Shown here: positions 37,910 to 54,592 of the stretch, piece by piece
Layout of the letters: each line of letters starts with the position of its first letter
Position numbering within the stretch: the first letter of the stretch is position 1
Assembly (NCBI RefSeq): GCF_002926165.1
Contig: NZ_MAGP01000001.1
Coordinates: 124,001-188,000, forward strand
Length of the DNA stretch: 64,000 nt
Reading direction: 5' to 3'
From: Micromonospora chalcea
GTDB lineage: Bacteria; Actinomycetota; Actinomycetes; Mycobacteriales; Micromonosporaceae
Made by a program: the position numbers and the translations under genes
The notes under the pieces: generated by a model
What the model saw: only the letters and a program-made list of their open reading frames with translations
Database searches by the model: none
Told to the model about the DNA's origin: nothing

Positions 37910-38032
37910 CCGGCCCTGCGACGGGGGGCGGGGGCCGACCACGAGTCGCTCCCGCCACCCGCCGCGACGGCTCGCTGTCCCGCAGGGCGGACGCGCCGAC
38001 CACGTCGGCTCACTGCCCCATACGATGGACAA

Positions 38033-38230
38033 CGGTGCTGGTTCGCCGTGCCCGTGAAGGGTGTGGCGTCGTAAGAGGGAACCCGGTGTGAGTCCGGGAC
38101 TGCCCCGCAGCGGTGAGTGGGAACGACAGCCGTCATCGAAGCACTGGACCGTGAGGTCTGGGAAGCGACGGCCAGTAGGTGACCGGGTGGATCCGGTCGC
38201 GCCCGCGAGTCCGAAGACCTGCCCGCACCG
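38033..38230 (+). ncRNA. Cobalamin riboswitch upstream of metE
   Basis: The conserved core of cobalamin riboswitches is readable in order: AGAGGGAACCCGGTG, then GTCCGGGACTGCCCCGCA, GCGGTGAGTGGGAACGACA, and the closing CGAGTCCGAAGACCTGCC. The outer stem is CGGTGC/GCACCG (38033-38038 with 38225-38230). Directly after it, a hairpin at 38231-38250 contains CGGTGC again, which could pair with the 3' strand of the outer stem and act as a switch. When B12 is plentiful the B12-independent enzyme MetE is expected to be shut off. Confidence 0.93.
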
Positions 38231-38250
38231 CGCGCACCGTCCGGTGCGCG
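38231..38250 (+). promoter_or_regulatory. Expression-platform hairpin of the metE riboswitch
   Basis: Nine-base arms (38231-38239 and 38242-38250) form a compact GC hairpin just after the aptamer. Its 3' arm contains CGGTGC, complementary to the 3' strand of the aptamer outer stem, so the two structures can exclude each other. Confidence 0.45.
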
Positions 38251-40726: not shown

Positions 40727-42361
40727 ATGATGCGACGCAGGATCTTCGCGCTGGCTACAGCAGCCGCGGTCGTCGTCGGCGGGGCCATGACGATGGCGCT
40801 GCGGCCGGCCTACGCCGCGACGGCGTGCACGGTGGACTACACCATCACCCGGGAGTGGTCCAGCGGCTTCTGGGCCGAGCTCACCGTCACCAACCTGGGC
40901 GCTCCCGTCACCGACTGGTGGCTGCGGTTCCGGCAGGCGAACGGTCAGACGATCACCATGGGCCTCGACCGGCTGCCGGACGGATACACGCTGGGCAGCG
41001 GCGAGATGTATCCGATGACCATGCTCCGTCCGCCGGCGGGATCCACGCTGCCGACCGGCGCCTCGGTGACGGTGCGGTTCGGCGGCAACTACCAGGGTGC
41101 CGACCCCGAGCCGACCGACTGGGTGTTGAGCGGCCAGCCGTGCGACGGGGACGGCGCCGACCCGACCGGCTCGTCGCCGCCGCCGGCCTCGGGGAGCCCG
41201 CGGCCCAGCCCACTGCCGGGCGGGCCGTCGGTGGCGCTCACCTCGCCCCTGCCCAATGACTTCTTCGCCGCGCCGGGCGTCATCCCGATCCGTGCCGAGG
41301 CCACGGCGGCGCCCGGCCGGCGGATCGAGCGGGTCGAGTTCCGGGAGCGCGGCAGGCTGCTCGCCGTGGACACCACCGCGCCGTACGCGTTCGACTGGCG
41401 CGGCGTGCCGCCGAACAGCGGCACCCGCCTCACCGCCACCGCCTACGACAGCAGCGGCGCCCAGGCCGGCGCCGAGGTCCGCGGCATCCGGGTGCTCCCG
41501 CCGCAGGCACCCGGCGACGCGCCTGCGCTGAAGGCGTTCGGCAACCGCATCCTCACGGTCGCAGCCAGTCCGAGGCCGTACCGGCCCCGTGGAATCATCC
41601 GATCGGCCGCGCCCGGCGAATGCGCATGGGGACCGATCCACTGGGACGGCCCGGTCGACGACGCGTCGGTAGGCGCGCTGCGGGCCCGCGGCGTCAACGC
41701 GGTACGGGTCGTGCTGAGCGACGCCTGCTACGCCTACACCGGCAGCCCTGCCGACAGGCAGAACCGGGTCGGCTACCTCGACGAGGCGGCCCGGTACGTC
41801 GACCGGCTCGTCGGGGCCGGCATCACACCCGTCGTGTCGCTGCAGCAGAGCGACATCTCCGCCACCCGCACGTTCTGGAGCGCGGCGGCGGAGGTGTTCG
41901 GCGACGACAACGCAGTGGTCTTCGACATCTCGCCGTACGACTTCCCGGCGGCCGGCGGCACCGATCCCGCGGCGGTCTGGACCTGCTGGCGCGACGGCGG
42001 ATCCGAGTGCGCCGGCGCCGGTCTGCCGAACTTCGGCGTGCAGGAGCAGATCCGCCTGCTTCGCGTCCAGGGCTCGTTCGACCTGGTCCTCGCCGCCGGG
42101 ATCGACGGCGGCAACGATCTGAGCCGGTGGCTGGAATATCGCCCGGCTGACCCGGACGGCCGCAGCGTGGCCGCCGCCTGGCGCGTCGACGACCGCTCGG
42201 CCTGCGCCACGCCGGCCTGCTGGCGGTCCACGCTGCTCCCGGTCGCCGCCCAGGTGCCGCTGGTCGCCACCGACGTCAGCGCCGGCTCGGGGGCGCCGAC
42301 GTTCGTACCGCGGACTGTCGCCTGGCTCGACCAGCACGGCATCGGCCACCTGCGCCGGTGA
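40727..42361 (+). CDS. Secreted CBM2 protein with GH5-like barrel lacking catalytic acids
   Basis: This is a 544-residue secreted protein. A signal peptide (to about residue 30) is followed by a CBM2 (about 31-140, with VDYTITREWSSGFWAELTV), a Pro/Ser linker, an Ig-like domain (about 165-260, RIERVEFRERGRLLAVDTTA) and a C-terminal domain like a GH5 barrel (RGIIRSA, then GPVDDASVGALRARGVNAVR). The place where GH5 enzymes carry NEP reads VVFDISPYDFP, and the place of the nucleophile Glu reads VATDVSAGSG. Both catalytic Glu residues therefore seem absent. I infer a cellulose-binding pseudo-enzyme. The start is either of two adjacent ATG codons (40727, 40730). Confidence 0.75.
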   Translation: MMRRRIFALATAAAVVVGGAMTMALRPAYAATACTVDYTITREWSSGFWAELTVTNLGAPVTDWWLRFRQANGQTITMGLDRLPDGYTLGSGEMYPMTMLRPPAGSTLPTGASVTVRFGGNYQGADPEPTDWVLSGQPCDGDGADPTGSSPPPASGSPRPSPLPGGPSVALTSPLPNDFFAAPGVIPIRAEATAAPGRRIERVEFRERGRLLAVDTTAPYAFDWRGVPPNSGTRLTATAYDSSGAQAGAEVRGIRVLPPQAPGDAPALKAFGNRILTVAASPRPYRPRGIIRSAAPGECAWGPIHWDGPVDDASVGALRARGVNAVRVVLSDACYAYTGSPADRQNRVGYLDEAARYVDRLVGAGITPVVSLQQSDISATRTFWSAAAEVFGDDNAVVFDISPYDFPAAGGTDPAAVWTCWRDGGSECAGAGLPNFGVQEQIRLLRVQGSFDLVLAAGIDGGNDLSRWLEYRPADPDGRSVAAAWRVDDRSACATPACWRSTLLPVAAQVPLVATDVSAGSGAPTFVPRTVAWLDQHGIGHLRR

Positions 42362-42547: not shown

Positions 42548-42582
42548 GATCCATGGAACCTACGGAGGAGGTTCCATGGATC
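42548..42582 (+). promoter_or_regulatory. Perfect hairpin holding the start codon and Shine-Dalgarno of the PhoX-like gene
   Basis: Two 13-base arms (42548-42560 and 42570-42582) are exact reverse complements. The nine-base loop contains GGAGG, the ribosome binding site, and the ATG at 42576-42578 lies inside the 3' arm. The structure should expose the binding site but hide the start codon. As DNA it is also a good palindromic operator. Confidence 0.7.
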
Positions 42583-43736
42583 GTCGAACGATGTTGCGGG
42601 CCACTGTTGTCGGTGCGGGCGCTGTCGCCCTGCCGTTCACGGCGTGGTCGGCGGCGTACGGAGCCCCGGCACAGAACGCGGCGGGGCCCTACGGCGGGCT
42701 TCAGGCAGCCGACGCCAACGGCATCCAGCTGCCGGCCGGGTTCACCAGCTCGATCGTCGCGCGGTCCCGGCGGACGGTGCCGGGGACGTCGTACACCTGG
42801 CACGACGCCCCGGACGGCGGCGCCGTGTTCCCGAACGGCACCGGCTGGATCTACGTGTCGAACTCCGAGGTGTCGGCCGGTGCGGGTGGCGGCGCCTCAC
42901 GCCTCGTCTTCAACTCCAGCGGCGCCGTGGTCGGGGCGTCGCGGATCCTCTCCGGCACCAACAACAACTGCGCCGGTGGGAAGACACCGTGGAACACCTG
43001 GCTCTCCTGCGAGGAGGTGTCCCTGGGCCGGGTCTTCGAGACGTACCCCCTCGGCGGGACCGCGGTGGCGCGTCCCGCGATGGGCCGGTTCAAGCATGAG
43101 GCGGCCGCGGCCGACCCGGTCCGCCGGGTCGTCTACCTGACCGAGGACGAGACCGACGGCAAGTTCTACCGCTTCGTGCCGGCCACCTGGGGCGACCTGT
43201 CCGCCGGAACCCTCCAGGTCCTCCGCGCCGGTACGGCCACCTCCGGCACGTTCACCTGGGCCACGGTGCCCGACCCGGACGGCTCGCCCACCCCGACCCG
43301 GCAGCAGGTGTCCGGCGCGAAGACGTTCAACGGTGGCGAGGGCTGTCACTACGCGGACGACACCGTCTGGTTCACCACGAAGGGCGACAACCGCGTGTGG
43401 CAGGTCAACCTGGCGGCCGGCACGTACGAGCTCGCCTACGACGACAACCTGGTCAGTCCGGGCACCCCTCCGCTGACCGGCGTCGACAACATCACCGGGT
43501 CCACTGCAGGTGACCTCTACGTAGCCGAGGACGGCGGCAACATGGAGATCTGCATGATCACGCCGGACGACAAGATCTCGGTCTTCCTGCGGATCACCGG
43601 ACAGAGCGGTTCGGAGATCACCGGGCCGGCGTTCACCCCGGCGGGGGACCGGCTGTACTTCTCCTCGCAACGCGGCACGACCGGCTCGTCGTCCGGCGGC
43701 ATCACCTACTGCGTCACCGGTCCGTTCCGCCGTTGA
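42576..43736 (+). CDS. Tat-exported PhoX-like (DUF839) phosphatase-type protein
   Basis: This 386-residue protein has a twin-arginine signal (MDRRTMLRATVVGAGAVAL) and a beta-propeller of the PhoX/DUF839 family. Conserved parts include TPWNTWLSCEEVSLGRVFE, with the Cys-Glu-Glu of the metal centre, RFKHEAAAADPVRRVVYLTEDE, and VDNITGSTAGDLYVAEDGGN. PhoX proteins are iron- and calcium-dependent phosphomonoesterases exported folded. This member is shorter than typical PhoX (over 500 residues), as are many actinobacterial DUF839 proteins, so activity is probable but unproven. Its start codon is inside a perfect hairpin. A long terminator follows. Confidence 0.85.
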   Translation: MDRRTMLRATVVGAGAVALPFTAWSAAYGAPAQNAAGPYGGLQAADANGIQLPAGFTSSIVARSRRTVPGTSYTWHDAPDGGAVFPNGTGWIYVSNSEVSAGAGGGASRLVFNSSGAVVGASRILSGTNNNCAGGKTPWNTWLSCEEVSLGRVFETYPLGGTAVARPAMGRFKHEAAAADPVRRVVYLTEDETDGKFYRFVPATWGDLSAGTLQVLRAGTATSGTFTWATVPDPDGSPTPTRQQVSGAKTFNGGEGCHYADDTVWFTTKGDNRVWQVNLAAGTYELAYDDNLVSPGTPPLTGVDNITGSTAGDLYVAEDGGNMEICMITPDDKISVFLRITGQSGSEITGPAFTPAGDRLYFSSQRGTTGSSSGGITYCVTGPFRR

Positions 43737-43807: not shown

Positions 43808-43958
43808 GCGTGCTCCACGCGGACGCGCCGGGACGACGGCCTCTCAACGTCGGGGTGTGAAACCGCCGATTCCGCCGGCCGTCACGGCACGTGGCCGGTT
43901 CCTGGCGCATTGACATCGGCGCACCGGCCACAGCAGACTGTCGCGACAACTCAACCAC

Positions 43959-44063
43959 CGCGTGTACGTGCGGGGGAAGACCGGTCGAAATCCGGCGCTG
44001 GCCCGCAACGGTAGGCCGCCCAGAGAACTCTGCGGCGGCGAGCCCGAATACCCGTCGTACGCG
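43959..44063 (+). ncRNA. Cobalamin riboswitch upstream of the first capture-protein pair
   Basis: The core reads CGGGGGAAGACCGGTCGAAA, then TCCGGCGCTGGCCCGCAACG, GTAGGCCGCCC and the closing GAGCCCGAATACC, the actinobacterial form of the cobalamin aptamer. Outer strands CGCGTGT (43959) and ATACGCG-like GTACGCG (to 44063) pair. A terminator-like hairpin follows at 44104. It is predicted to repress the downstream operon when adenosyl- or methylcobalamin is abundant. Confidence 0.9.
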
Positions 44064-44103
44064 TGCAACCGCTCCCCACCCGTCGTGGCCCACGGGTCGG
44101 AGT

Positions 44104-44136
44104 CCCGGACGGCCCCGCGTACTGCGGTCGTCCGGG
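44104..44136 (+). terminator. Riboswitch expression-platform hairpin
   Basis: Eleven-base arms (44104-44114 and 44126-44136, one G-T pair) close an 11-base loop and are followed by CTTTCG. It lies between the aptamer and the start of the next gene, as expected for a terminator controlled by the riboswitch. Confidence 0.5.
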
Positions 44137-44171
44137 CTTTCGACGACCGCCGGGCCGGAAAGGCGCTTCCG

Positions 44172-45215
44172 ATGGTCGTCCGCCGAAGCCGGCACCGCCT
44201 GCTCGCGCTCCTCTGCGGCGTACTCGCCGCTCTCACCCTCACCGCACCGGCCGTCGCCGCCCCCGGGCGCGCCGCCCTCACCCGCCCGGAGGCCGCCGCC
44301 GGCTGGCTCGCCCGGCAACTCGTCGACGGCGAACGCTTCGAGGCGGTCTTCGACGGTGTCGCCTACCCCGACCAGGGGCTGACCCTCGACGCCGTGTTCG
44401 CCTTCGCCGCCGCCGGCGTGGCCGACGACCACGGCGCCGGCGCGCTGGCCTGGGTCACCCGGCCGGACATCCGCGACGGCTATCTCGGCGACGGCGTCTC
44501 CGAGGCGTACGCGGGCGCGACCGCCAAGCTCGCCCTCGCCGTGCAGGTGCGCGGCGGCGACCCGGCCGACGTCGGCGGGGTGGACCTGATCGCCCGGCTG
44601 CGTTCGCTGCAGACGCCGGCCGGCCGGTTCAGCGACCGGTCCGCGTACGGCGACTACAGCAACGCGTTCAGCCAGTCCTTCGCGCTGCTGGCGCTGGACC
44701 GTACGGCGGCCGGGGCGCCTCCGGCGGCGGCCGCCTGGCTGGCCGGCACCCGGTGCCCGGACGGTGGCTACCCGCTGCTGCCCGCCCAACCGGTCTGCAC
44801 GTCCGACGTGGACGCCACCGCGCTCGTGACGCAGGCGCTGCGCGCCGCGGACCGTCCGGCCGACGCCGCCGCCGGGCTGCGCTGGCTGGTGTCCGTTCAG
44901 CGTGCCGACGGCGGCTTCGCCAACGCGGCCGGCACACCGAACGCCAACAGCACCGGCCTCGCCGCGCAGGCCCTGCGCGACGGTCACCGGCTGCCGGCCT
45001 GGGCGCGGTCCCGGGCGTTCCTCGCCGGACTCCAGGTCGGCTGCGCCGGGGCGCCCGCCGACCGGGGCGCCGTCGACTTCGACGGTGGCGGCTTCGACCC
45101 GGCCACCGCGCCCCGGGCCACCGCCCAGGCCGTCCTCGGTCTCACCGGGATCGGGTACGCCCGTCTGTCCGCCGCCGGCGCCGACCCCGGCGCACCGGTG
45201 CTCGCCTGCCCGTGA
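44172..45215 (+). CDS. Secreted alpha/alpha-barrel protein, intrinsic factor-like N-domain
   Basis: This 347-residue protein has a signal peptide (cut near APAVAA, residue 35) and repeated helix pairs of the terpenoid cyclase/prenyltransferase toroid: ALTRPEAAAGWLARQL, YAGATAKLALAVQVRGGDP, YSNAFSQSFALLALDRT and PNANSTGLAAQALRDG. The repeats and the WL..Q.. motifs match the alpha6/alpha6 barrel of eukaryotic cobalamin binders (intrinsic factor, transcobalamin). The control by a cobalamin riboswitch and the DUF4430 partner 35 bases downstream support cobalamin binding outside the cell. The ATG at 44172 is chosen for the signal peptide. Binding is inferred, not shown. Confidence 0.82.
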   Translation: MVVRRSRHRLLALLCGVLAALTLTAPAVAAPGRAALTRPEAAAGWLARQLVDGERFEAVFDGVAYPDQGLTLDAVFAFAAAGVADDHGAGALAWVTRPDIRDGYLGDGVSEAYAGATAKLALAVQVRGGDPADVGGVDLIARLRSLQTPAGRFSDRSAYGDYSNAFSQSFALLALDRTAAGAPPAAAAWLAGTRCPDGGYPLLPAQPVCTSDVDATALVTQALRAADRPADAAAGLRWLVSVQRADGGFANAAGTPNANSTGLAAQALRDGHRLPAWARSRAFLAGLQVGCAGAPADRGAVDFDGGGFDPATAPRATAQAVLGLTGIGYARLSAAGADPGAPVLACP

Positions 45216-45250
45216 ACCGCCTCGCCGCTCACCCGATCACAGGAGGACCC

Positions 45251-45736
45251 GTGTTCCGTCACCGTCCCACCGCCCGCACCTGGATGGCCGGCCTGCTGGC
45301 CGCCGTCGTGGCCGGCGTCGCGCTGACCGCAGTCGAACCCGCGCCCCGGTCGGCGCACGCCGCCGCCTGCGCCGGCACCTCGGGAGTCACTGTGGTCGTC
45401 GACTTCGCCGCGCTCGGCGGCGGCGTACAGGTCGCCTGTGCGCCGGGCGATCCGGCCACCGGCCTGGCCGCGCTTCAGGCCGCCGGCTTCACCGTCACCG
45501 GCACCGCCCGCTGGGGCCTGGCCTTCGTCTGCCGGATCAACGGCAAGCCCACCGCCGCGACCGAGCCGTGCGTCAACACCCCGCCGGCCACCGCGTACTG
45601 GTCGTACTGGCACGCGTCCAGCGGTGGCTCCTGGTCCTACAGCACGTCGGGGGCGACCGGCTACAACCCCGCGCCGGGCAGCGTTGAGGGCTGGTCCTTC
45701 GGCGCCGGCTCCCCGCCGAGCATCGCCGCTCCCTGA
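45251..45736 (+). CDS. Secreted DUF4430 protein, intrinsic factor-like C-domain
   Basis: This is a 161-residue secreted protein. A signal peptide (to about residue 38) is followed by one DUF4430 domain: SGVTVVVDFAALGGGVQVAC, GLAALQAAGFTVTGT, FVCRINGKPTAA, a pair of Cys, and YWSYWHASSGGSWSYS, then EGWSF. DUF4430 is the C-terminal beta domain of intrinsic factor and transcobalamin, which closes over the corrin ring. The GTG at 45251 has AGGAGG upstream. It is co-transcribed with the alpha/alpha-barrel gene, so the two may form a split cobalamin binder. It has no membrane anchor. Confidence 0.85.
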   Translation: MFRHRPTARTWMAGLLAAVVAGVALTAVEPAPRSAHAAACAGTSGVTVVVDFAALGGGVQVACAPGDPATGLAALQAAGFTVTGTARWGLAFVCRINGKPTAATEPCVNTPPATAYWSYWHASSGGSWSYSTSGATGYNPAPGSVEGWSFGAGSPPSIAAP

Positions 45737-45853
45737 CCCGCCGGCTGCGAACGGTGTGACCAGCGGCGCGCCGGGTACCGGCAGCTGCTCTGGCGTCGTC
45801 GCGCGCCCGGGCGGTACGGTGTCGGCACCCGGTGCGCCGGGCACAACTGCATA

Positions 45854-45948
45854 CGTCCCGTGTGGGGGGAAGCCGGTTCGAAGCCGGCGCTGACCCGCAA
45901 CCGTGAGCGAGAGTCCCTTTCGCGAGCCGGAATGCCCCGCCCGGGACG
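45854..45948 (+). ncRNA. Cobalamin riboswitch upstream of the anchored capture/ECF operon
   Basis: The core reads GTGGGGGGAAGCCGGTTCGA, then AGCCGGCGCTGACCCGCAAC, CGTGAGCGAGAG and GAGCCGGAATGCC. The outer stem CGTCCCG/CGGGACG (45854-45860 with 45942-45948) is perfect. It lies about 150 bases before the LPXTG protein gene, with GC-rich inverted sequences (about 46002-46041) that could be its expression platform. It should control all five downstream genes. Confidence 0.92.
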
Positions 45949-46095
45949 AGCGGCTTCCACTGTCGAGGTCTACAGGGTGAAGTCCGGGCCGCCGAGGTCC
46001 GACCACCCCGCCCACCGCAGCACGCGGAGCGGGGTGTCCGTCTCTCGGGGTGCTTTCCGGAGGTTTCACCGACCGCTCTGCGAAAGGCACCCCTG

Positions 46096-47550
46096 ATGCC
46101 CCTGTCCCGGCGTCTCACCACCGGTCTCGGTACAGCCACGGTGACGGCTCTCGCCGCGATCACCGGCGCTCCGTCGGCCGTTGTCGCGGCACCCGCCCCG
46201 GCCCACGTCACCGCCGCCCGCGACGCCGCCTCCTGGCTGGCCGGCGAGTTCACCGACGGGGCGCTGCCCGGCCCGTTCGCCCCCGAGGACTGGGGGCTGA
46301 CCATCGACGGCCTGGTCGCGCTGTCCGTCACCGGCGTCGACGCACCGACCCGGCAGGCGGCGACCGCGCAGGTCGCGACACACGTACGGTCCTACAACAG
46401 CTACGACGACTGGGGCATCGAGGGCTTCACCGACGGCGGGGCCACCGCCAAACTGCTCTACGCCGCGGCCGCCGCCGACGCGGACCCCACCGACTTCGGC
46501 GGCTACGACCTGCGGGCGGAAACCCTGTCACTGATCGCCACGGCCGACGCCGGGCACCAGCGGGGACGGATCACCAGCCGTACCACCGCCGACAGCGGCC
46601 CGGACGCCAGCAACACCTTCGACCAGTCCTTCGCCGTGCTCGGCCTGGCCCGCAGCGGCGACCTGCCACAGGATCCGGTGGACTTCCTGATCCGGCAGCA
46701 GTGCGCGGCGGGCGGCTTCCGGCTCTACCCGGACGCCGCCGACGGGCCGTCGCCGTCCTGCGACGACCAGCCCGGCGCCACCCTCGACGTCGACTCGACC
46801 GCGATGGCCGTGCAGGCGTTGCTGGCCGCCGCCGAGGACGGCGCCACGGGCGCCGGCGACGCCGCCCGCAAGGGCGCCGATTGGCTGGTCACCCAGCAGC
46901 ACGCCGATGGTTCCTTCGGCGGCTCGGGACCGACCACCGGCGCGAACTCCAACAGCACCGGCCTGGCCGGGCAGGCCCTCGCCGCCGCCGGCCGCGACGA
47001 CGAGGCCGCCCGGGCGGCGACGGCCCTGGCCGCGCTGCAGCTCACCGCGGGCAACGGTGGCGCGGCCTCCGCCGACGCCGGCGCGATCGCCTACAACACC
47101 GACGGATTCACGGCTGCCTCGGCGGCCGGGATCACCGACACCGACCGGGACCAGTGGCGCCGGGCCACCGCGCAGGCCCTGCTCGGGCTGGCCCAGGTCC
47201 CGCTGGGCCGGATCGGCCTCGACCCGCCGCCCACGTCGACTCCCACCCCGACCGGCACGGCCTCGCCCACCGCGCCGTCCACGCCCTCCGCGTCTCCCAC
47301 GCTCACCACGTCGCCTCCACCGACCGGCACCGCCGGCCCGACGCCGAGCGTGACCAGCCCTGCGGCGACACCCGCGCCCACGACCGCGGCGCCGGCCACC
47401 GCCGCGCCGCCGAGCACGACCCCGGCCGCGTCCGGGCCGGGCGGGCTGCCGACGACCGGCGCGGCGATCGGTAGCTACCTGCTGATCGCGCTGCTGCTGA
47501 TCGGTGGCGGAGTGACACTGCTCGTGCTCGGCCGACGGCGGGCGGGATGA
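46096..47550 (+). CDS. Cell-wall-anchored (LPXTG) alpha/alpha-barrel protein, intrinsic factor-like
   Basis: This is a 484-residue protein with signal peptide (to about residue 34), a helical toroid domain (about 38-375; for example DAASWLAGEF, DGGATAKLLYAAAAADADP, NTFDQSFAVLGLARSGDLP, NSNSTGLAGQALAAAGRD), a Pro/Thr/Ser-rich wall-spanning linker, and a sortase signal LPTTG followed by a hydrophobic helix and RRR. It is a paralogue of the protein encoded at 44172 but fixed to the cell wall. It follows a cobalamin riboswitch and overlaps the membrane-anchored DUF4430 gene by ATGA. I infer surface capture of cobalamin. Confidence 0.85.
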   Translation: MPLSRRLTTGLGTATVTALAAITGAPSAVVAAPAPAHVTAARDAASWLAGEFTDGALPGPFAPEDWGLTIDGLVALSVTGVDAPTRQAATAQVATHVRSYNSYDDWGIEGFTDGGATAKLLYAAAAADADPTDFGGYDLRAETLSLIATADAGHQRGRITSRTTADSGPDASNTFDQSFAVLGLARSGDLPQDPVDFLIRQQCAAGGFRLYPDAADGPSPSCDDQPGATLDVDSTAMAVQALLAAAEDGATGAGDAARKGADWLVTQQHADGSFGGSGPTTGANSNSTGLAGQALAAAGRDDEAARAATALAALQLTAGNGGAASADAGAIAYNTDGFTAASAAGITDTDRDQWRRATAQALLGLAQVPLGRIGLDPPPTSTPTPTGTASPTAPSTPSASPTLTTSPPPTGTAGPTPSVTSPAATPAPTTAAPATAAPPSTTPAASGPGGLPTTGAAIGSYLLIALLLIGGGVTLLVLGRRRAG

Positions 47551-48443
47551 GCCTCCGCGCCGCCCGTGGCGCGCTGGCCGTCGCCCTGGTCACCGCCTGC
47601 ACCACGATCGGACCGGGCAGTCCTGCGGTGGCCGCCGGGTCGGCCGGCTACTGCCCGGACGCCTCCGGGGTCACAGTCGTGGTGGACTTCAACGAACTCG
47701 GCGGCGGGACGGTGGTGCGGTGCGCGCCGGGCACCCAGGCCACCGGCCTCGCGGCGCTCAAGAACGCGGGCTTCCCGATCACCGGAACCCTGCGCTGGGG
47801 CGAGGGGTTCATCTGCCGGATCGACGGCAAGCCGTCGGCTGCGACGGAGAAGTGCGTCGACACCCCGCCTGCGAGCGCCTACTGGTCGTACTGGCACGCC
47901 CCGAACGGCGGCAACTGGACGTACAGCGACAAGGGCGTGCTCAACCGCAAGCCGGCGGCCGGCAGCTTCGAGGGCTGGTCGTTCTCCCTCAACCGTAACG
48001 CCGACGACGCGCCCCGTCCCGGCGTCGCGCCGAAACGCCCCGCACCGCTACCGCCACCACCGCCGCCGCCCACGGGCGGTGAGCCGGCGGCGCCACCACC
48101 GGCGGGAGGAACCGTCGCACCGCCGCCGGTCGCCGGTGGCCGGCCCGGCGAGCCCACCCGGCCGGGCGGCACCTCCGGCCCGCCGGTCTCCGCCGGCCCG
48201 CCGACCTCCGCCGGCACGTCACCGACGGCCGGTACGCCGACCCTGACGGCGACGCCGGGCGCTGCCATCGGCACGGCACCGCAGGGCTCCTCCGACGAGC
48301 CGGTGGTGACGGATGTCGCCGCGTCCCGTGACGACGACGGCCTGCCACTGGGCACGATCGCCGGGGTGCTTCTGCTCGCCCTGCTCGCCACCGGCGCGCT
48401 GGTCGCGGCCCGACGACGCCGTGCCGCCGACCCGGATGACTGA
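47547..48443 (+). CDS. Membrane-anchored DUF4430 protein
   Basis: This 298-residue protein is arranged as signal peptide, DUF4430 domain (about 33-145: SGVTVVVDFNELGGGTVVRC, FICRIDGKPSAA, YWSYWHAPNGGNWTYS, EGWSF), Pro-rich linker with poly-Pro, and a C-terminal membrane helix (GTIAGVLLLALLATGALVAA) ending in Arg residues. LVTAC in the signal region also resembles a lipobox, so the N-terminus might be lipidated. It is the anchored paralogue of the protein encoded at 45251 and is coupled to the LPXTG protein. It could hand cobalamin from the wall to the transporter. Confidence 0.83.
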   Translation: MSLRAARGALAVALVTACTTIGPGSPAVAAGSAGYCPDASGVTVVVDFNELGGGTVVRCAPGTQATGLAALKNAGFPITGTLRWGEGFICRIDGKPSAATEKCVDTPPASAYWSYWHAPNGGNWTYSDKGVLNRKPAAGSFEGWSFSLNRNADDAPRPGVAPKRPAPLPPPPPPPTGGEPAAPPPAGGTVAPPPVAGGRPGEPTRPGGTSGPPVSAGPPTSAGTSPTAGTPTLTATPGAAIGTAPQGSSDEPVVTDVAASRDDDGLPLGTIAGVLLLALLATGALVAARRRRAADPDD

Positions 48444-49680
48444 CGTCACGGTCACCGGGGCGCGGCCGGCTGACGCCCGTCGTCTGCCGGGCCGGTGGCC
48501 GATGTGGTGGCTGCCCCGGGGGCTGCACCCCGGCGCGTGGTGGCTGTGGGCGCTCGGCCTGGCCACCGCGGCCAGCCACACCACGAACCCGCTGCCGTTG
48601 GCCCTGCTCGTCGCCGTCGCCGGTCGGGTGCTGGGGCGCCGCCGGGGCGACGCGCCGTGGGCGTTGGCGTTCCGCATGTACGTCTGGCTCGGCGCGGTGA
48701 TCGTCACGATGCGGGTGGTGTTCCGGATCGTGTTCGGCGGCGGCCAGGGCGACCACATCCTGGTCCGGCTGCCGGAGATCCCGCTGCCCGCGTGGGCGGC
48801 GGGCATCCGCCTGTTCGGACCGGTCGCCGCCGAGCAGATCCTCGGTGGCTTCTACGACGGGCTGCGGCTGGCGACGATGCTGATCTGCCTCGGTGCGGCG
48901 AACGCCCTGGCCAACCCGAAGCGGCTGCTCAAGGCCGTACCCGGAGCGCTGTACGCGATCGGCACCGCCGTCGTGGTCGCGTTGTCGGTCGCCCCGCAGC
49001 TGGTGGAGAGCGTGCTACGGGTCCGCCGGGCCCGGCGGCTGCGCGGCGCGTCCGCCCGCGGGATGAGGGCGCTGCGCGGGATCGCCCTGCCGGTGCTGGC
49101 CGACGCGTTGGACCGGTCCCTGGCCCTCGCGGCCGCGATGGACTCCCGTGGTTACGGCCGCACCGCGGCGGTGCCCGCCGGGCAGCGAACCGTCACCGGG
49201 GCGCTCGTCCTCGGCGGGCTGGTCGGCGTCTGCGCCGGCACCTACGGGCTGCTCGACACCGCCGCACCCGGCTACCTGGGGCTGCCGATGCTCCTGGCCG
49301 GACTGACCGCCGCCGTGACCGGCATGCTGCTGGCCGGTCGCCGGGTCCGCCGCAGCCGGTACCGACCGGACCGCTGGCGCCCGGCCGAGCTGCTCGTGGC
49401 CGGCTGCGGGGTGGCCGCCGCGGCACTGACCATGCTCGCCGGCTCGGTGGACCCGGAACTGCTCTACCCGCCGGTCAGCCCGCTCACCTGGCCCCAGCTG
49501 ACCCCGCTGATGCTTCTCGCCGTCGGCGTCGCGGCGGCACCCGCCTGGCTGGCGCCGCCACCACCGCCGACAGTAAGTGCCGGACGCCCGCCGGCGGTGG
49601 ACCGGCCCATCCCCGTCACGGACGTGCCGGCAGACGGAGTGCGCGCCGCGAGGGCATCGACACCGGGAGACCGCCCATGA
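48436..49680 (+). CDS. ECF transporter T component (CbiQ-like)
   Basis: This 414-residue membrane protein is of the energy-coupling transmembrane component family. Helices near the N-terminus (HPGAWWLWALGLATAASHTTNP) lead to the cytoplasmic coupling region with two Ala-Arg-Gly-type motifs (RRARRLRGASARG and ALAAAMDSRGYGRT), which bind the ATPases. The C-terminal part adds further helices and a disordered tail, making it longer than typical EcfT (about 260). It overlaps the DUF4430 gene by eight bases and the ATPase gene by ATGA. It links ATP hydrolysis to the S component encoded last. Confidence 0.88.
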   Translation: MTDVTVTGARPADARRLPGRWPMWWLPRGLHPGAWWLWALGLATAASHTTNPLPLALLVAVAGRVLGRRRGDAPWALAFRMYVWLGAVIVTMRVVFRIVFGGGQGDHILVRLPEIPLPAWAAGIRLFGPVAAEQILGGFYDGLRLATMLICLGAANALANPKRLLKAVPGALYAIGTAVVVALSVAPQLVESVLRVRRARRLRGASARGMRALRGIALPVLADALDRSLALAAAMDSRGYGRTAAVPAGQRTVTGALVLGGLVGVCAGTYGLLDTAAPGYLGLPMLLAGLTAAVTGMLLAGRRVRRSRYRPDRWRPAELLVAGCGVAAAALTMLAGSVDPELLYPPVSPLTWPQLTPLMLLAVGVAAAPAWLAPPPPPTVSAGRPPAVDRPIPVTDVPADGVRAARASTPGDRP

Positions 49681-51308
49681 TCACTTTCGACCGGGTCACC
49701 GTCCACTATGCCGAGGGCGGCCCGCCACCGTTGCGGGATGTGACGTTTCGCGTCGAGGAAGGTGAACTCTGCCTGGTCGCGGGCCGTACCGGTGCCGGAA
49801 AGTCGACGCTGCTGCGGGCGATCAACGGTCTCGTCCCACACTTCACCGGCGGCACCCTGCACGGCGCCGTCACCGTCGACGGCAGGGACACCCGCACGCA
49901 CCCGCCGCGCGATCTCGCCGACGTCGTCGGCGTGGTCGGCCAGGACCCGTTGGCCGGCTTCGTCACCGACACCGTCGAGGAGGAACTGGCGTACGGGATG
50001 GAGCAGCTCGCCCTGCCACCCGCGGTGATGCGTAAGCGGGTGGAGGAGACGCTGGACCTGCTCGGCATCGCCGACCTGCGCGACCGGCCCCTGCGGACGC
50101 TGTCCGGCGGTCAGCAACAGCGGGTCGCCATCGGCGCGGTGCTCACGGCGCACCCCCGTGTGCTGGTGCTCGACGAACCCACCTCCGCGCTGGACCCCAC
50201 CGCCGCGGAGGACGTGCTCGCCACCGTCACCCGGCTGGTGCACGACCTCGGAGTGACAGTGGTGCTGGCCGAGCACCGGCTGGAGCGCGTCCTGCAGTAC
50301 GCCGACCGGCTGCTGTACCTCCCCGGCGACGGCCATGTCCACGACGGGACGCCGGCGACCGGGCTGGCCCACATCGACATCGCGCCACCCCTGATCGAGC
50401 TGGGTCGCCTCGCCGGCTGGACACCGCTGCCGTTGTCGGTCCGTGACGCCCGCCGACGGGCGTCCGACCTCCGGCACCGGCTCGCCGGCGTGGCGCCGCC
50501 GCCGGTCCCGGCGGGCGCGGACACCGGTCCCACGCTGACCGCGCGGAAGATCGTCGTACGGTATCCGGGCACCGTCGCGGTGGCCGGCGTCGACCTCGAT
50601 CTGCGCGCCGGCCGGGTCGTCGCGTTGATGGGCCGCAACGGATCCGGCAAGTCCAGCCTGCTCTGGGCGGTGCAGGGCAGCGGCCCACGCCACGGCGGCA
50701 CCGTCGCCGTGACCGGGCCGAAGGGCACCGTCGACCCGAAGGCCCTGCCGGCCGGTCAGGCCCGCCGGCACGTCGGCCTCGTCCCGCAGGACTCCGGTGA
50801 CCTGCTCTACCTGGAGACAGTCGACGCGGAGTGCGCCCAGGCCGACCGGGAGACCGGCGTGCCGGCCGGCACCTGCCGGGCGCTGGTGGACCAGCTCGTC
50901 CCCGGACTGCCCGGTGACCGGCACCCCCGGGACCTGTCCGAGGGACAGCGGCTCGCCCTCGCACTCGCCGTGCAGCTCACCGCCGCTCCGCCGGTGGTCC
51001 TGCTCGACGAGCCGACCCGCGGCCTGGACTACCATGCCAAGCGGCAGTTCACCGCCGTCGCCCGGATGCTGGCCGGCAGCGGCCGAGCCGTGGTGGTCGC
51101 CACCCACGACGTCGAACTCGTCGCGACCCTCGCCGACCGGGTGATCGTGATGGCCGAAGGGGAGATCGTCTCCGACGGCACCACCGCAGAGGTCATGCTC
51201 GCCTCGCCGGCGTTCGCGCCGCAGGTGGCCAAGGTCCTCGCCCCCGCCCCCTGGCTGACAGTGGAACAGGTCGCCGCCGCGCTCGACGAGACCAGGGCAC
51301 CGGCATGA
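49677..51308 (+). CDS. ECF transporter ATPase with two ABC domains
   Basis: This 543-residue protein has two complete ABC domains in tandem. The first has Walker A AGRTGAGKSTLL, a Q-loop VVGQDPLAGFVTDTVEEELA with the ECF-specific acidic helix, signature TLSGGQQQRVAIG and Walker B VLVLDEPTSALDP. The second has Walker A GRNGSGKSSLL, signature DLSEGQRLALALA and Walker B VVLLDEPTRGLDY. It corresponds to EcfA and EcfA' fused. It overlaps its neighbours on both sides by ATGA. It powers uptake through the T and S components. Confidence 0.92.
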   Translation: MITFDRVTVHYAEGGPPPLRDVTFRVEEGELCLVAGRTGAGKSTLLRAINGLVPHFTGGTLHGAVTVDGRDTRTHPPRDLADVVGVVGQDPLAGFVTDTVEEELAYGMEQLALPPAVMRKRVEETLDLLGIADLRDRPLRTLSGGQQQRVAIGAVLTAHPRVLVLDEPTSALDPTAAEDVLATVTRLVHDLGVTVVLAEHRLERVLQYADRLLYLPGDGHVHDGTPATGLAHIDIAPPLIELGRLAGWTPLPLSVRDARRRASDLRHRLAGVAPPPVPAGADTGPTLTARKIVVRYPGTVAVAGVDLDLRAGRVVALMGRNGSGKSSLLWAVQGSGPRHGGTVAVTGPKGTVDPKALPAGQARRHVGLVPQDSGDLLYLETVDAECAQADRETGVPAGTCRALVDQLVPGLPGDRHPRDLSEGQRLALALAVQLTAAPPVVLLDEPTRGLDYHAKRQFTAVARMLAGSGRAVVVATHDVELVATLADRVIVMAEGEIVSDGTTAEVMLASPAFAPQVAKVLAPAPWLTVEQVAAALDETRAPA

Positions 51309-52159
51309 GCGTGCTGCGGGTCGCCCCGCGTACCGCTGTGGTGCTGACCCTCGCCTCGGCCGCCGCGCTGGCCACCTTCACCTGGCCGTTCTTCGTCCCC
51401 GCACACCCGGAGAGCACCGCCCGCACCGGCGAGGCGCCGCTGGTCTTCATCGTCATGCTGCCGGTACTCGTGGCGCTCGTCCTCGCCGAACTCACCTCCG
51501 GCGGCATCGACAGCAAAGCCCTGGCGATGCTCGGCGTACTCGCCGCCGTCAACGCCGCCCTGCGCCCCCTGGGTGCGGGGACCGCGGGCATCGAGACCGT
51601 GTTCTTCCTGCTCGTCCTGGCCGGCCGGGTCTTCGGACCCGGGTTCGGGTTCCTGCTCGGTGCCACGTCGCTGTTCGCCTCCGCCCTGCTCACCGCAGGC
51701 GTCGGGCCGTGGCTGCCGTTCCAGATGCTCTGCGCCTCGTGGATCGGCCTCGGCGCCGGCCTGCTTCCGGCCCGGCTGCGAGGCCGCGCCGAGGTCGCCG
51801 TCCTGGCCGGGTACGGGATGCTCGCCGCCTACGGCTACGGCCTGCTGATGAACCTGTGGTTCTGGCCGTTCAGCGTCGGCGCGGACACCCAGCTGTCCTA
51901 CGTCGCCGGCGCCCCCGTACTGGAGAACCTGCACCGTCTCGCCCTGTTCACCGCCGTCACGTCCACCTTCGGCTGGGACACCGGCCGCGCGATCACCACC
52001 GCCGTGGCGATAGTCCTCGCCGGTCCCGCCGTCCTCGCCGCGCTGCGCCGCGCCGTCCGGCGGGCCGCGTTCGGCGCGCCGGTCACCTTCGCCGCGGCGT
52101 CCGACAGGCCCGCGGCGAAGGTGACCGGCATCCCGCAGTCCTCCTCGCAGGCGACGTAG
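51305..52159 (+). CDS. ECF transporter substrate-specific (S) component
   Basis: This 284-residue membrane protein has about six or seven helices, consistent with an S component: LPVLVALVLAELTSGGIDSKALAMLG, an inner LAVLRPLGAG-like turn (NAALRPLGAGTAGIE) and GRVFGPGFGFLLGATSLFASALL. It closes the operon downstream of a cobalamin riboswitch and two cobalamin-binder-like pairs, so cobalamin or a precursor corrinoid is the inferred substrate. A cytoplasmic tail of about 30 residues follows the last helix. Confidence 0.82.
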   Translation: MSVLRVAPRTAVVLTLASAAALATFTWPFFVPAHPESTARTGEAPLVFIVMLPVLVALVLAELTSGGIDSKALAMLGVLAAVNAALRPLGAGTAGIETVFFLLVLAGRVFGPGFGFLLGATSLFASALLTAGVGPWLPFQMLCASWIGLGAGLLPARLRGRAEVAVLAGYGMLAAYGYGLLMNLWFWPFSVGADTQLSYVAGAPVLENLHRLALFTAVTSTFGWDTGRAITTAVAIVLAGPAVLAALRRAVRRAAFGAPVTFAAASDRPAAKVTGIPQSSSQAT

Positions 52160-52179
52160 GGCGCCGGCCGGAGGGTCGG

Positions 52180-53709
52180 TCAGACGGTCGTACGCGACCA
52201 CTGCTGGTTGGCGCCGGTGTTGCACGCGTACTGCTTGAGGACCACACCGTCAGCGGTCGATGCGGCCGGTACGTCCACGCACTTGCCGCTGTGCCGTGCC
52301 CGGAGTTGGAAGTAGCTGCCGCCTGTGACCATCTGGAACTGCTGGTTGGTGCCGGTGCCGCAGGTGTACTGGATCAGTTCGGCGCCGTCGGCGGTGGACG
52401 CGCTCACGACGTCGAGGCACTTTCCGCTGTTGCGGCTGACGAGTCGCCAGTAGCCGTTGCCGGCGTCCTGGAACTGCCACTGTTGCCACGTGTTGCCGTT
52501 GTACGTGTACTGGCCGACGCGCGCGCCGTTGTCGGTGTTCGGTTGCTGGACGTCCATGGCCTTGCCGCTGTGTCGCACGGTGATCCGGTAGAACGTGTCA
52601 GTCGACGGCGGGGGCGTCGTGGGGCCGCCGTCGATGGTGTCGCCCCAGGCGTACCGGATCTGGTCGGCGCCGGAGGTGTTGCGGACGGTCAGGTTGAGGT
52701 CGGTGCCGCTACCGCTGAGCGAGTACATCGAGTACCAGTCGTAGCCGATGGTGCCGGGCTTGCCGCCGAGCGCGGGCCAGTAGGTGCCGCCCATCCGGTT
52801 GTCGCGCATGACCTGGGCCATGGCGCGGATGTGGCGCACGAAGTTGTCGGTGCTGTTCGCGTCGGCGTAGTTGCGGCCGTCGTTCATGGGTGCGCCGAAC
52901 TCGGTGGCGACCGCCCGCGACGCGCAGTTGCCGAGGCGGGTCTGGATGTGGCTCCGGAAGGCGTCGTAGGTCATCTCGCCGTAGAAGAAGGCGTAGTGGT
53001 GGAACGACAGCAGCGTCGAGGCGAATCGGCTGTCGTTGCAGATGTCGCGCAGGTCCTGACTGAACCCGGTGCCCCCGATGAGCACCCGGCTGGGCACCGC
53101 CGAGTAGTGGTAGCTGAGCCAGTTGGCCGCGACGTTGCGCCACTCCGTCGAGCTGTAGCCGTGGGGCTCGTTCATCGGCTCGAAGTAGACGTTGGAGTTC
53201 GAGCCGTACGTGTTGGTCACCGTGGACCACATCGCGTTCCACGCGGCGAGGTTCGTGATCCGGCCGCCGGAGGCGGCGCCGTCCTCCCAGTAGGCGAGGA
53301 TGACCTTGAAACCGCGGGCGGTGGCGGCGTCGATGGCGCCCCGGTAGGCCTCCCACCACGCCGTTCCTACCGTGTGGGTGTTGATGGGTAGCCGGACGGT
53401 GTTGACGCCCATGGTGGAAGCCATGTCGTCGTAGAGGGCGTTGGCCTTGGCCCGCACCGTCGCGTTGCTGTCGGAGGAGCTGAGGCCCTGCACGACGAGG
53501 GGACCGGTGCTGAAGTTGTCACCCAGCACGGCCCAGTTCATGCCTCGGAACTGGTTCGTGGCGGCGACGGCGGGCGACGACATGACGACGCCGCCGCCGA
53601 CCATCGCCGTCGTCGCGGCCACCAACACGATCAGCAGCCGGCGTAGTGACCTGGTGCTCCGCGCCGAGAAGTGGTCAATCACTGATCCGGCCTCCCTGGG
53701 TTCGGACAT
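52180..53709 (-). CDS. Secreted GH5-family glycoside hydrolase with ricin-type lectin domain
   Basis: This is a protein of about 500 residues. A signal peptide near residues 20-48 is followed by a GH5-like barrel (RGMNWAVLGDNF, VNTVRLPINTHT) with the acid/base Glu in EPMNEPHGYSS and the nucleophile Glu in AVATEFGAPMN. After a short Pro/Thr linker, residues about 375-509 form a ricin-type CBM13 with three QxW repeats (WQQWQFQD, NQQFQMVT, NQQWSRTTV). The substrate subfamily is uncertain. The first codon may be the ATG at 53709 or an internal start nearer the signal peptide. The gene points away from the conflict genes and towards the ECF operon. Confidence 0.88.
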   Translation of the reverse strand: MSEPREAGSVIDHFSARSTRSLRRLLIVLVAATTAMVGGGVVMSSPAVAATNQFRGMNWAVLGDNFSTGPLVVQGLSSSDSNATVRAKANALYDDMASTMGVNTVRLPINTHTVGTAWWEAYRGAIDAATARGFKVILAYWEDGAASGGRITNLAAWNAMWSTVTNTYGSNSNVYFEPMNEPHGYSSTEWRNVAANWLSYHYSAVPSRVLIGGTGFSQDLRDICNDSRFASTLLSFHHYAFFYGEMTYDAFRSHIQTRLGNCASRAVATEFGAPMNDGRNYADANSTDNFVRHIRAMAQVMRDNRMGGTYWPALGGKPGTIGYDWYSMYSLSGSGTDLNLTVRNTSGADQIRYAWGDTIDGGPTTPPPSTDTFYRITVRHSGKAMDVQQPNTDNGARVGQYTYNGNTWQQWQFQDAGNGYWRLVSRNSGKCLDVVSASTADGAELIQYTCGTGTNQQFQMVTGGSYFQLRARHSGKCVDVPAASTADGVVLKQYACNTGANQQWSRTTV

Positions 53710-54205: not shown

Positions 54206-54592
54206 ATGCGTGCAGCAATCAGTCTGACGGGACCGGAATCGGCCTGGGAAGCCAACAGTCTCGCCTCATGGCTGCGCGACGATCCACAGCTACGCCGCTA
54301 CGGACACGCCGAACTGGCACCGCCTGCGGTCGGCAGTATGGGTGCGGGCGAGGTTGTCACTGTTGTGCTGACCCAACTCGCCGGCGTCGTCAGTTTGGTC
54401 ACCGCCTACCTGCAGTGGCGTCAGGCGGCACATCGCCAGGTTTCTGGCGCGCGGCTACGGGTTGGTAAGGCAGAGATTGAATTGGACGAAATTCGCTCTC
54501 TAAAGGACTACCGCGAACCGATCGAGCAGTTCTTGCAGCGCTTGAAGGAACTTGAGAGTGAGGGGCCGGGCCTGACCGATGAAGCTTCCTGA
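54206..54592 (+). CDS. EACC1-type effector-associated adaptor protein
   Basis: This 128-residue protein resembles effector-associated constant component 1 of actinobacterial conflict systems: SWLRDDPQLRRYGHAELAPP, a Gly-rich GSMGAGEVVTVVLTQL and a hydrophobic helix (LAGVVSLVTAYLQWRQ), then a charged helix. Such proteins accompany effectors with caspase, trypsin or other domains. The ATG at 54206 is preferred because GAGG lies six bases upstream; ATG 54200 is too close. It overlaps the caspase gene by 14 bases, so the two are coupled. The family assignment is from remembered pattern and should be tested by profile search. Confidence 0.72.
   Translation: MRAAISLTGPESAWEANSLASWLRDDPQLRRYGHAELAPPAVGSMGAGEVVTVVLTQLAGVVSLVTAYLQWRQAAHRQVSGARLRVGKAEIELDEIRSLKDYREPIEQFLQRLKELESEGPGLTDEAS

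Follow-up and report, generated by a model that had tools for sequence, protein, structure and literature searches.

The window, i.e., the whole stretch of 64,000 nt that was analyzed, carries two gene pairs and an ECF transporter, all on the + strand. Riboswitch 1 (43950..44073; 35.6 bits with the covariance model of Rfam RF00174) is the leader of pair 1, and riboswitch 2 (45843..45958; 34.5 bits) serves as leader for both pair 2 and the transporter genes. Both exceed the RF00174 gathering score of 31.5 and stand directly before a barrel gene, which confirms that each of the two pairs of barrel and small-domain genes noted in a preliminary description of this DNA lies behind a cobalamin riboswitch. 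Pair 1 comprises B1 (44172..45215), an alpha/alpha-toroid protein by profile, and D1 (45251..45736), a DUF4430-like protein of the transcobalamin-type beta-grasp class by profile comparison. Pair 2 comprises B2 (46096..47550), a second toroid protein by profile, with a Thr/Pro-rich stalk, and D2 (47547..48443), with a beta-grasp domain of the same type, a Pro-rich stalk, and a C-terminal transmembrane helix. The four proteins are probably exported, as judged from signal peptides called by eye in the translations. A separate unit with the same regulatory logic carries a third cobalamin riboswitch (38022..38240, 98.3 bits with RF00174), with a MetE-like gene, named by eye from its ORF, downstream (38357-40606).

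The start of D1 was shifted from 45212 to the GTG at 45251, which is preceded by AGGAGG. D1 most likely begins there, and hence B1 and D1 do not overlap. With the chosen starts, overlaps are found at B2/D2, D2/T, T/A, and A/S, so that the overlaps described previously hold for pair 2 and the transporter but not for pair 1. The C-terminal region of B2 (47446..47547) has the features of a sortase substrate, namely LPTTG, a hydrophobic helix, and a basic RRR tail, and there are five sortase matches in the genome. The initial view of a surface-bound system is thus consistent with the B2 tail and the D2 helix of pair 2, but no anchor was seen in D1 or at the C terminus of B1.

The transporter consists of an EcfT-type transmembrane coupling protein of the CbiQ family (48436..49680; Pfam CbiQ, 7.6e-6), an EcfA with two ABC ATPase domains on a single chain (49677..51308; Pfam ABC_tran, 6.7e-49, two stretches), and an S component, the substrate-binding membrane protein (51305..52159; Pfam ECF_trnsprt, 1.8e-8). 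All these matches are above the Pfam cut-offs, in agreement with the complete ECF transporter proposed earlier; those of the NCBIfam ECF ATPase models to EcfA are under cut-off. Pfam listed no CbiM or CbiN match for the S component, and an 11-member profile of this component found no solved S component in the PDB, CbrT included, up to E 10.

Folds and partnership of the exported proteins

A profile of 45 barrels matches squalene-hopene cyclase at 2.8e-23, which supports the original assignment of the B proteins to the alpha/alpha barrels. Seven residues (D71, K119, Q177, D233, N284, N286, and T288) are identical in all 45 aligned sequences. Class II terpene cyclases such as squalene-hopene cyclase have the catalytic motif DxDD, which was not found in B1 or B2: the corresponding site reads DVDAT in B1 and DVDST in B2, retaining the DxD part. 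The Pfam family Cobalamin_bind (PF01122, cut-off 25) gave matches under cut-off for B2 (11.4 bits, E 0.15) and for a natural one-chain B-D fusion of a relative, L103 (12.8 bits), and no match at E 1 for B1. When the model of L103 was searched with VIA, terpene cyclases and sugar epimerases ranked first, terpene cyclases being nearest to the toroid by whole-domain Z (24.6), and neither transcobalamin nor intrinsic factor was among the best 50 matches listed, an absence on which we base no conclusion. These carriers were also absent among the matches listed for the B profile against the PDB and among the best 60 of 94 matches of a joint B and D profile.

The small proteins had been described as exported DUF4430 proteins, a name that the Pfam family itself does not support, as neither D1 nor D2 gave a PF14478 match with an E of 1 or below. 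There is no PF14478 match elsewhere in the genome either, and the family is visible in just 2 of the 18 D domains scanned (best E 0.056). Direct Pfam assignment was hence rejected, and we turned to comparisons of profiles and structures. By hhalign, the D profile matches DUF4430 with a probability of 95.9 over 100 columns, at a score of 50 where the best of 60 column shuffles reached 10.6. Of the 32 D proteins, 18 entered the D alignment (A1), from which permuted, partial, and some other sequences were left out, and the DUF4430 alignment (A2) comprises 16 of the 30 DUF4430 loci plus one gene of G171, L084 being left out as a near-copy and the others for a wrong reading frame or for lack of a row; in a further alignment (A8), the row L103:7190-7363 covers part of the domain only. 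The D profile also recovers three PF14478 genes at identical places (in G099, G027, and G153), and in one genome a gene above the PF14478 cut-off lies directly behind a barrel.

Structure points in the same direction. We modelled the D2 of the window itself (pLDDT 89.6), and in the VIA search rows 1-15 belong to haptocorrin, transcobalamin, intrinsic factor, and the bacterial structure 3u7z, a solved structure titled putative metal-binding protein, with Z of 10.0-10.9; the next family has Z 7.4. With Foldseek, every match of this model had an E above 0.001, and in the search of the D sequence profile against the PDB transcobalamin and intrinsic factor were absent among the matches listed. As judged from profiles and predicted structure, the D domains are kin to the beta domains of all three animal cobalamin carriers. 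This agrees with the earlier proposal that the two domains of the animal carriers occur here on separate chains.

Natural fusions support a partnership of B and D. We identified twelve, including two near-copies, and seven relatives have the two domains fused into a single chain in the order seen in the animal carriers. For L103, which is 96% identical to the fusion L105, Foldseek gave transcobalamin or intrinsic factor for each of the ten best matches in the PDB, with E from 2.7e-8 to 5.7e-7 over 474-489 columns. The structural match to intrinsic factor on which the first interpretation hinged was thus recovered, in a relative rather than in the chains of the window. The domain orientation of this model is unlike that of holo-transcobalamin (TM 0.34-0.40, rmsd 20-23), and hence a corrin-sized cleft is not seen in it. 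Over 65 loci, one of which was entered with its D duplicated (minimum distance 0.00), the mirror distances of B and D correlate with r 0.85. Correlations with EcfT reached r 0.82 and 0.90 as well, and the partial r was 0.46, which makes co-variation of B and D a weak indication from sequence.

Related loci and genomic context

We compared the window with 33 loci from a sample of the phylum (32 genomes, G171 being represented twice) and with 79 others; one search retained 80 of 350 matches. Several loci are close relatives, L113 and L117 cover overlapping parts of the same contig, and the genes are uncurated mechanical ORFs. All five genes (B, D, T, A, and S) are present in 24/33 and 64/79 loci, counts that are conditional on D because all loci were fetched by this domain. 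Among the 20 loci with two pairs, window included, 16 have an unanchored pair 1, a wall-sorting signal on B2, and a membrane helix on D2. Allowing up to three substitutions, we counted the riboswitch core motif 151 times in 1.59 Mb (the window and 112 loci) and never in 0.92 Mb of shuffled sequence built from 60 of these 113. It lies less than 1 kb upstream of a B or D domain, on the same strand, in 26/33 and 73/79 loci, and was not found in place in 7/33 and 6/79. Five loci without the core in place (L104, L148, L149, L168, and L171) sit at or near contig ends.

Some relatives have rearranged both domains. In the NCBIfam families SCO2321_fam (NF053823) and SCO2322_fam (NF040672), B and D, respectively, are circularly permuted, and the proteins of locus L060 match these families at 1e-187 and 2e-68. 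The proteins of the window give partial matches, under the cut-offs of 300 and 85: B1 and B2 score 106.6 bits (1.3e-30) and 73.9 bits (1.1e-20) with the former, D1 and D2 30.5 and 37.6 bits with the latter.

The genome of the window encodes MetH and a second candidate importer, of the binding-protein type, led by a cobalamin riboswitch; CbiC was searched and not found. A link between the D domain and the loss of CbiC was considered and rejected, as CbiC is above cut-off in 9 of 38 D-bearing genomes and 44 of 160 others (Fisher p 0.69), three genomes with a PF14478 gene as sole match being counted among the 160. Excluding family f4 gives 2/31 versus 44/160 (p 0.011), but this exclusion was chosen post hoc and ignores kinship, and we thus give the value no weight.

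A putative split clamp and its alternatives

We consider it probable that the locus encodes a B12-regulated corrinoid uptake system, with capture by two chains followed by ECF import, whose most likely purpose is to scavenge B12. Support comes from the genes, the riboswitch matches, the kinship and predicted fold of D, the fusions, the anchor motifs, and the conserved gene set, and the toroid fold of B is predicted in a relative. From these we infer the ligand, its binding, the order of loading, the opening, and the hand-over to the ECF importer. When B12 is scarce, both riboswitches would permit gene expression. Each pair would form a transcobalamin-like clamp split over two chains: the beta-grasp domain of D would take the corrinoid, and the toroid of B would then shut over the ligand. 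The unanchored pair 1 may bind corrinoids outside or inside the wall. Pair 2 would be fixed, with B2 on the wall via sortase and D2 in the membrane beside the transporter; from this pair the S component (51305-52159) would receive the corrinoid for import with EcfT and the double EcfA. With its halves on separate chains, the clamp could open without proteolysis. More tentatively, the pairs might work as a two-stage, proteolysis-free relay, from a released B1/D1 scavenger to the B2/D2 tied to wall and membrane, which would open next to the S component. Reversibility would then stem from the division of the transcobalamin clamp into two chains. In SCO2321/SCO2322, both partner domains are circularly permuted and the operon has been retained. 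When human transcobalamin is produced in two separate chains, these come together only if cobalamin is present (PMC5599065).

The same machine may instead serve a corrinoid different from B12 (cobinamide, incomplete corrinoids, or cobamides with other lower bases), with B12 being taken by a separate importer. This is a narrower case that overlaps with the preferred reading, and we regard it as possible rather than probable. The second candidate importer behind a riboswitch would fit, as would an S component of unassigned type, and the ECF-CbrT of Lactobacillus delbrueckii accepts both cobalamin and cobinamide (PMC5997447). However, there is no pointer to a particular corrinoid, and riboswitch control is compatible with any. 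A surface store or sink, which would keep B12 away from neighbours and pass little of it directly to the importer, might explain why pair 1 is unanchored and pair 2 held on long stalks; it is unlikely given the overlap of the D2 and T genes and the co-occurrence of the five genes in the related loci.

Two other readings move away from corrinoid capture. The importer could carry cobalt or another metal under B12 control, B and D being accessory surface proteins: EcfT is in the CbiQ family, the metal importers Cbi/NikMNQO are of the ECF type (PMC2667541), and 3u7z is titled as metal-binding. Yet the S component is of the ECF_trnsprt type with no CbiM/CbiN match listed, a toroid and beta-grasp clamp would presumably be needless for a metal ion, and the domains resemble corrinoid carriers, by Foldseek for L103 and by VIA for D2, which makes this quite improbable. 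Alternatively, the barrel could be a terpene-cyclase-like or glycan-acting enzyme that frees or alters a substrate which D merely binds. Such an enzyme would fit the retained DxD and the proximity of the barrel to terpene cyclases, squalene-hopene cyclase included, in both the profile and the Z comparison, but DVDAT and DVDST depart from DxDD, the seven invariant residues argue against it, and the fusion L103 finds the carriers first by Foldseek. We regard it as highly improbable.

Comparison with known systems

Burroughs et al. (2007) predicted B12 scavengers from transcobalamin-like SLBB/DUF4430 domains associated with toroids and CbiO/CbiQ (PMC1796856), and the idea presented here is thus not new in kind. 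As in our locus, the proteins of that clade are exported, several have Gram-positive anchors, and they occur in operons with CbiO/CbiQ; the toroid precedes or follows the beta-grasp domain, and the operon sometimes has a second paralogue (PMC1796856). The window shares the anchors, in pair 2, and the T and A genes in the operon, and export as judged by eye. The clade was described in low-GC Gram-positives and planctomycetes, and more rarely in euryarchaea (PMC1796856), whereas the branch of the window is found in Actinomycetota, has D domains under the Pfam cut-off, mostly keeps the two halves in separate genes, and adds cobalamin riboswitches, two-tier anchoring, and circular permutations in relatives. 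The split branch of this putative clamp is, to our knowledge, new, and the general idea dates from 2007.

Concerning import, ECF-CbrT has the ECF architecture for corrinoids that we propose here, but is predicted to share its ECF module with other S components (PMC5997447), whereas T, A, and S lie together in the window. In the same phylum, the freshwater acI Actinobacteria have ECF modules behind cobalamin riboswitches, regarded as putative cobalamin transporters, in passages that mention no surface toroid or beta-grasp partner (PMC5301498). The locus is a riboswitch-marked candidate for catching corrinoids at the wall of Actinomycetota, a process for which the cited studies, as far as they are used here, report no experiment in this phylum. 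SCO2321_fam and SCO2322_fam have the neighbouring genes and domains of the window under names that give no function, and SCO2321 was termed hypothetical in a 2022 paper (PMC9237094). Both would become testable halves of a B12 clamp, and the double circular permutation provides a natural test for which parts of the clamp matter.

Animal transcobalamin, intrinsic factor, and haptocorrin likewise combine an alpha/alpha toroid with a transcobalamin-type beta-grasp domain. In contrast to them, the window has two chains, wall and membrane anchors in pair 2, and a tie to an ECF importer, and its barrels, like L103, lack a PF01122 match at cut-off. The animal carriers free B12 only upon proteolysis (PMC11107200). 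With a natural split counterpart of transcobalamin, the release of tightly held B12 without digestion becomes directly testable.

Layout of the locus and its riboswitches

The preliminary description proposed a split bacterial counterpart of intrinsic factor and transcobalamin, led by riboswitches and joined to an ECF transporter for B12 capture and uptake. The locus comprises two gene pairs on the forward strand, each encoding an exported alpha/alpha-toroid protein (the barrels B1 and B2) and a small exported beta-grasp partner (D1 and D2). Behind the first cobalamin riboswitch lie B1 (44172-45215) and then D1 (45251-45736), whose start was reset from an AGGAGG site. The second precedes B2 (46096-47550), D2 (47547-48443), EcfT (48436-49680), a double EcfA (49677-51308), and the S component (51305-52159). 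Both riboswitches score above the Rfam curated score, and the run of gene pairs into a complete transporter is real. A third cobalamin riboswitch (98.3 bits) lies upstream of the locus, ahead of a gene that resembles MetE by eye.

The region 43900-52200 is 89.7% identical to the Micromonospora marina locus L137 across 8.3 kb, and the window is of the Micromonospora type. The neighboring genes (40727-42361, 42576-43736, and 52180-53709) match CBM2 and Ig domains, PhoX, and GH5 with a ricin-type lectin, respectively, with no obvious B12 connection. Elsewhere, 54579-57287 (+) encodes a caspase-type peptidase domain, with an MgtE N-domain match close to the protein's end, and 14045-14331 (-) matches 5_ureB_sRNA in Rfam (44.6 bits, cut-off 40), which may merely be conserved urease coding sequence on the opposite strand.

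Kinship of the two chains with cobalamin carriers

The D proteins had been labeled DUF4430 (PF14478). At the Pfam level this label did not stand, since D1 and D2 were not called and the model touched just 2 of 18 D domains (best E 0.056), but kinship was recovered by profile-profile score and by the predicted fold of D2. The profile of 18 D domains aligned with 17 DUF4430 domains over 100 columns (hhalign probability 95.9), scoring 50, against at most 10.6 for column-shuffled alignments (n=60) and 4.8 for the reversed one. Three genes (genomes G099, G027, and G153) were found by both the D profile and PF14478 at the same positions. We modeled the window's own D2 from a 52-row alignment (pLDDT 89.6). 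Its best nine Foldseek matches are all transcobalamin, with modest E values (1.6e-3 to 1.7e-2), and VIA rows 1-15 comprise haptocorrin, transcobalamin, intrinsic factor, and 3u7z, a bacterial protein (Z 10.0-10.9), after which the next family drops to Z 7.4.

The barrel profiles fall among the alpha/alpha toroids, closest to squalene-hopene cyclase, and Pfam Cobalamin_bind (animal) scored under its cut-off on them. Squalene-hopene-type cyclases carry the motif DxDD; this position reads DVDAT or DVDST in the window barrels. Nine polar residues (D71, K119, Q177, D233, Q268, N284, N286, T288, and Q315, B2 numbering) are identical in 45/45 aligned barrels, as are cysteines 203 and 222. We infer that the invariant polar residues line the toroid lumen.

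In 12 natural ORFs, both domains are part of a single polypeptide, which supports a partnership of B and D. The toroid precedes D, as in transcobalamin, in seven fusions (L033, L044, L052, L095, L103, L105, and L130, with L103 and L105 being near-copies), and follows it in five (L096, L110, L157, L159, and L160). L110:4086-6908 encodes a single 940-aa D-B-B chain with two barrels and an LAxTG signal at its end. The L103 fusion, from a Nocardioidaceae MAG, was modeled with a 79-row alignment including both window pairs (pLDDT 82.1, pTM 0.69). A Foldseek search of 350,542 PDB chains put transcobalamin and intrinsic factor in all of the first ten places (E 2.7e-8 to 5.7e-7), with alignments of 474-489 columns that span both domains in order. 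The expected structural match to intrinsic factor was thus seen in a relative of the window chains. The whole model superposes badly on the animal carriers (TM 0.34-0.40 by query length, rmsd 20-23). Its domain placement therefore differs from that of the animal proteins, and a binding cleft is not evident in the model. Terpene cyclases are the closest structures to the L103 toroid by Z (24.6), and neither transcobalamin nor intrinsic factor is among the best 50 VIA rows.

Spread, anchoring, and circular permutation

Among 198 Actinomycetota genomes, D was found in 33 by single-sequence search and in 41 by profile, 3 of the latter matching at a PF14478 gene only. Patterns from six D domains, run against bacterial and archaeal genomes, gave 350 relatives, and the titles of the 79 loci kept are actinobacterial throughout. 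The set B, D, T, A, and S is complete in 24/33 loci of the phylum sample and 64/79 kept loci. In 26/33 and 73/79, respectively, a B or D domain is preceded on its own strand by a riboswitch core at a distance below 1 kb; 0.92 Mb of shuffled sequence gave 0 matches. At the stricter Rfam curated score, a riboswitch heads the module in 3/9 and 7/10 scanned loci. Two loci have other layouts. L046:5034-8512 (-) has a D domain with a lipobox-like signal (LAAC, by eye), adjoining an ORF of 1008 aa that has matches to both an ATPase and an S component; neither barrel nor riboswitch core was found in this 16.5 kb locus, and its D perhaps acts alone as a lipoprotein. L032:7134-14137 has the order D-T-A-S-B, directly followed by a gene above the Pfam DUF4430 cut-off, which may be a second, classical beta-grasp partner of its barrel.

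We called anchors by a simple hydropathy and motif rule in loci that have two or more B genes and two or more D genes on the forward strand. In 16 of these 20 loci (window included), B1 and D1 have no anchor, B2 has a C-terminal LPxTG or LAxTG with a hydrophobic helix, and D2 has a C-terminal transmembrane helix. The window's own genome has five sortase matches. Across 18 two-pair loci, mean differences are 0.26 and 0.34 within the barrel classes against 0.59 between the two barrels of a genome, and 0.19 and 0.17 against 0.37 for the D domains. Because differences within classes are smaller than those between classes in one genome, pair 1 and pair 2 are taken to be old paralogues of each other.

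The barrel is permuted, its first profile third matching after the rest, in 8 of 123 classed barrel ORFs: six in genomes of family f4 (L049, L057, L060, L061, L062, and L064), plus L035 and L037, where D is straight. The applied threshold marks D as permuted in L055 and L060. L061, L062, and L064 show the same arrangement of D, with the second half matching less strongly (E 2e-3 to 3e-3); the genome search gave a permuted D in G107 and again in G062, the genome of L055. The L060 proteins match SCO2321_fam (1e-187) and SCO2322_fam (2e-68), NCBIfam families without stated function, as do the L061 barrel (SCO2321_fam, 1.6e-177) and the L055 D (SCO2322_fam, 2.7e-51). Judged by sequence, both families are circular permutants of transcobalamin-type halves, in agreement with the partial matches that the window proteins gave to them. 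Permutation of the beta-grasp has a precedent in E1 enzymes, according to PMC1949818. In PMC9237094, SCO2321 is listed as hypothetical and as having a signal sequence.

Corrinoid supply and relation to known systems

MetH is present in the own genome (GCF_002926165.1) and a search there for CbiC did not find it, so the organism probably needs corrinoid uptake. On its contig C122 (L181:6528-9609), a cobalamin riboswitch precedes the gene of a Peripla_BP_2 binding protein (2.9e-38) that matches the BtuF model at 6.4e-19, under the cut-off and second to TIGR04281, accompanied by an ORF resembling an ABC ATPase by eye. These genes are a candidate second corrinoid importer, which counts against a unique role for the B/D-ECF locus. 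Contig C97 has strong cobalamin riboswitches at 36657 and 39406 (86.7 and 82.9 bits).

Architecture and kinship give good support to the reading as a split B12 clamp, with a putative corrinoid ligand and a putative hand-over. Transcobalamin made as separate alpha and beta domains requires added cobalamin to assemble, and splitting reduces its affinity (parts of PMC5599065). From this behavior we infer a loading order and a reopening: D would load the corrinoid first, B would then close over it, and a clamp on two chains, not one, could open again and pass its cargo to the S component.

For freshwater acI Actinobacteria, PMC5301498 reports ECF modules located downstream of cobalamin riboswitches. 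Among open-access journal articles, seen as search listings and passages, we found neither an account of the actinobacterial branch nor a B12 role assigned to SCO2321/SCO2322. For bacteria, fusions of a toroid with a transcobalamin-like domain, with either one first, were described by Burroughs, Balaji, Iyer, and Aravind (2007; PMC1796856). Those proteins are exported, several of them have an anchor, and their operons include CbiO and CbiQ and at times a second paralogue. Key enzymes of B12 synthesis are usually missing from their hosts, and the role proposed was B12 scavenging. The hosts named there are low-GC Gram-positives, planctomycetes, and less often euryarchaea, whereas the present branch is actinobacterial. 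The locus thus extends a type of system already predicted in 2007, rather than founding a new one.
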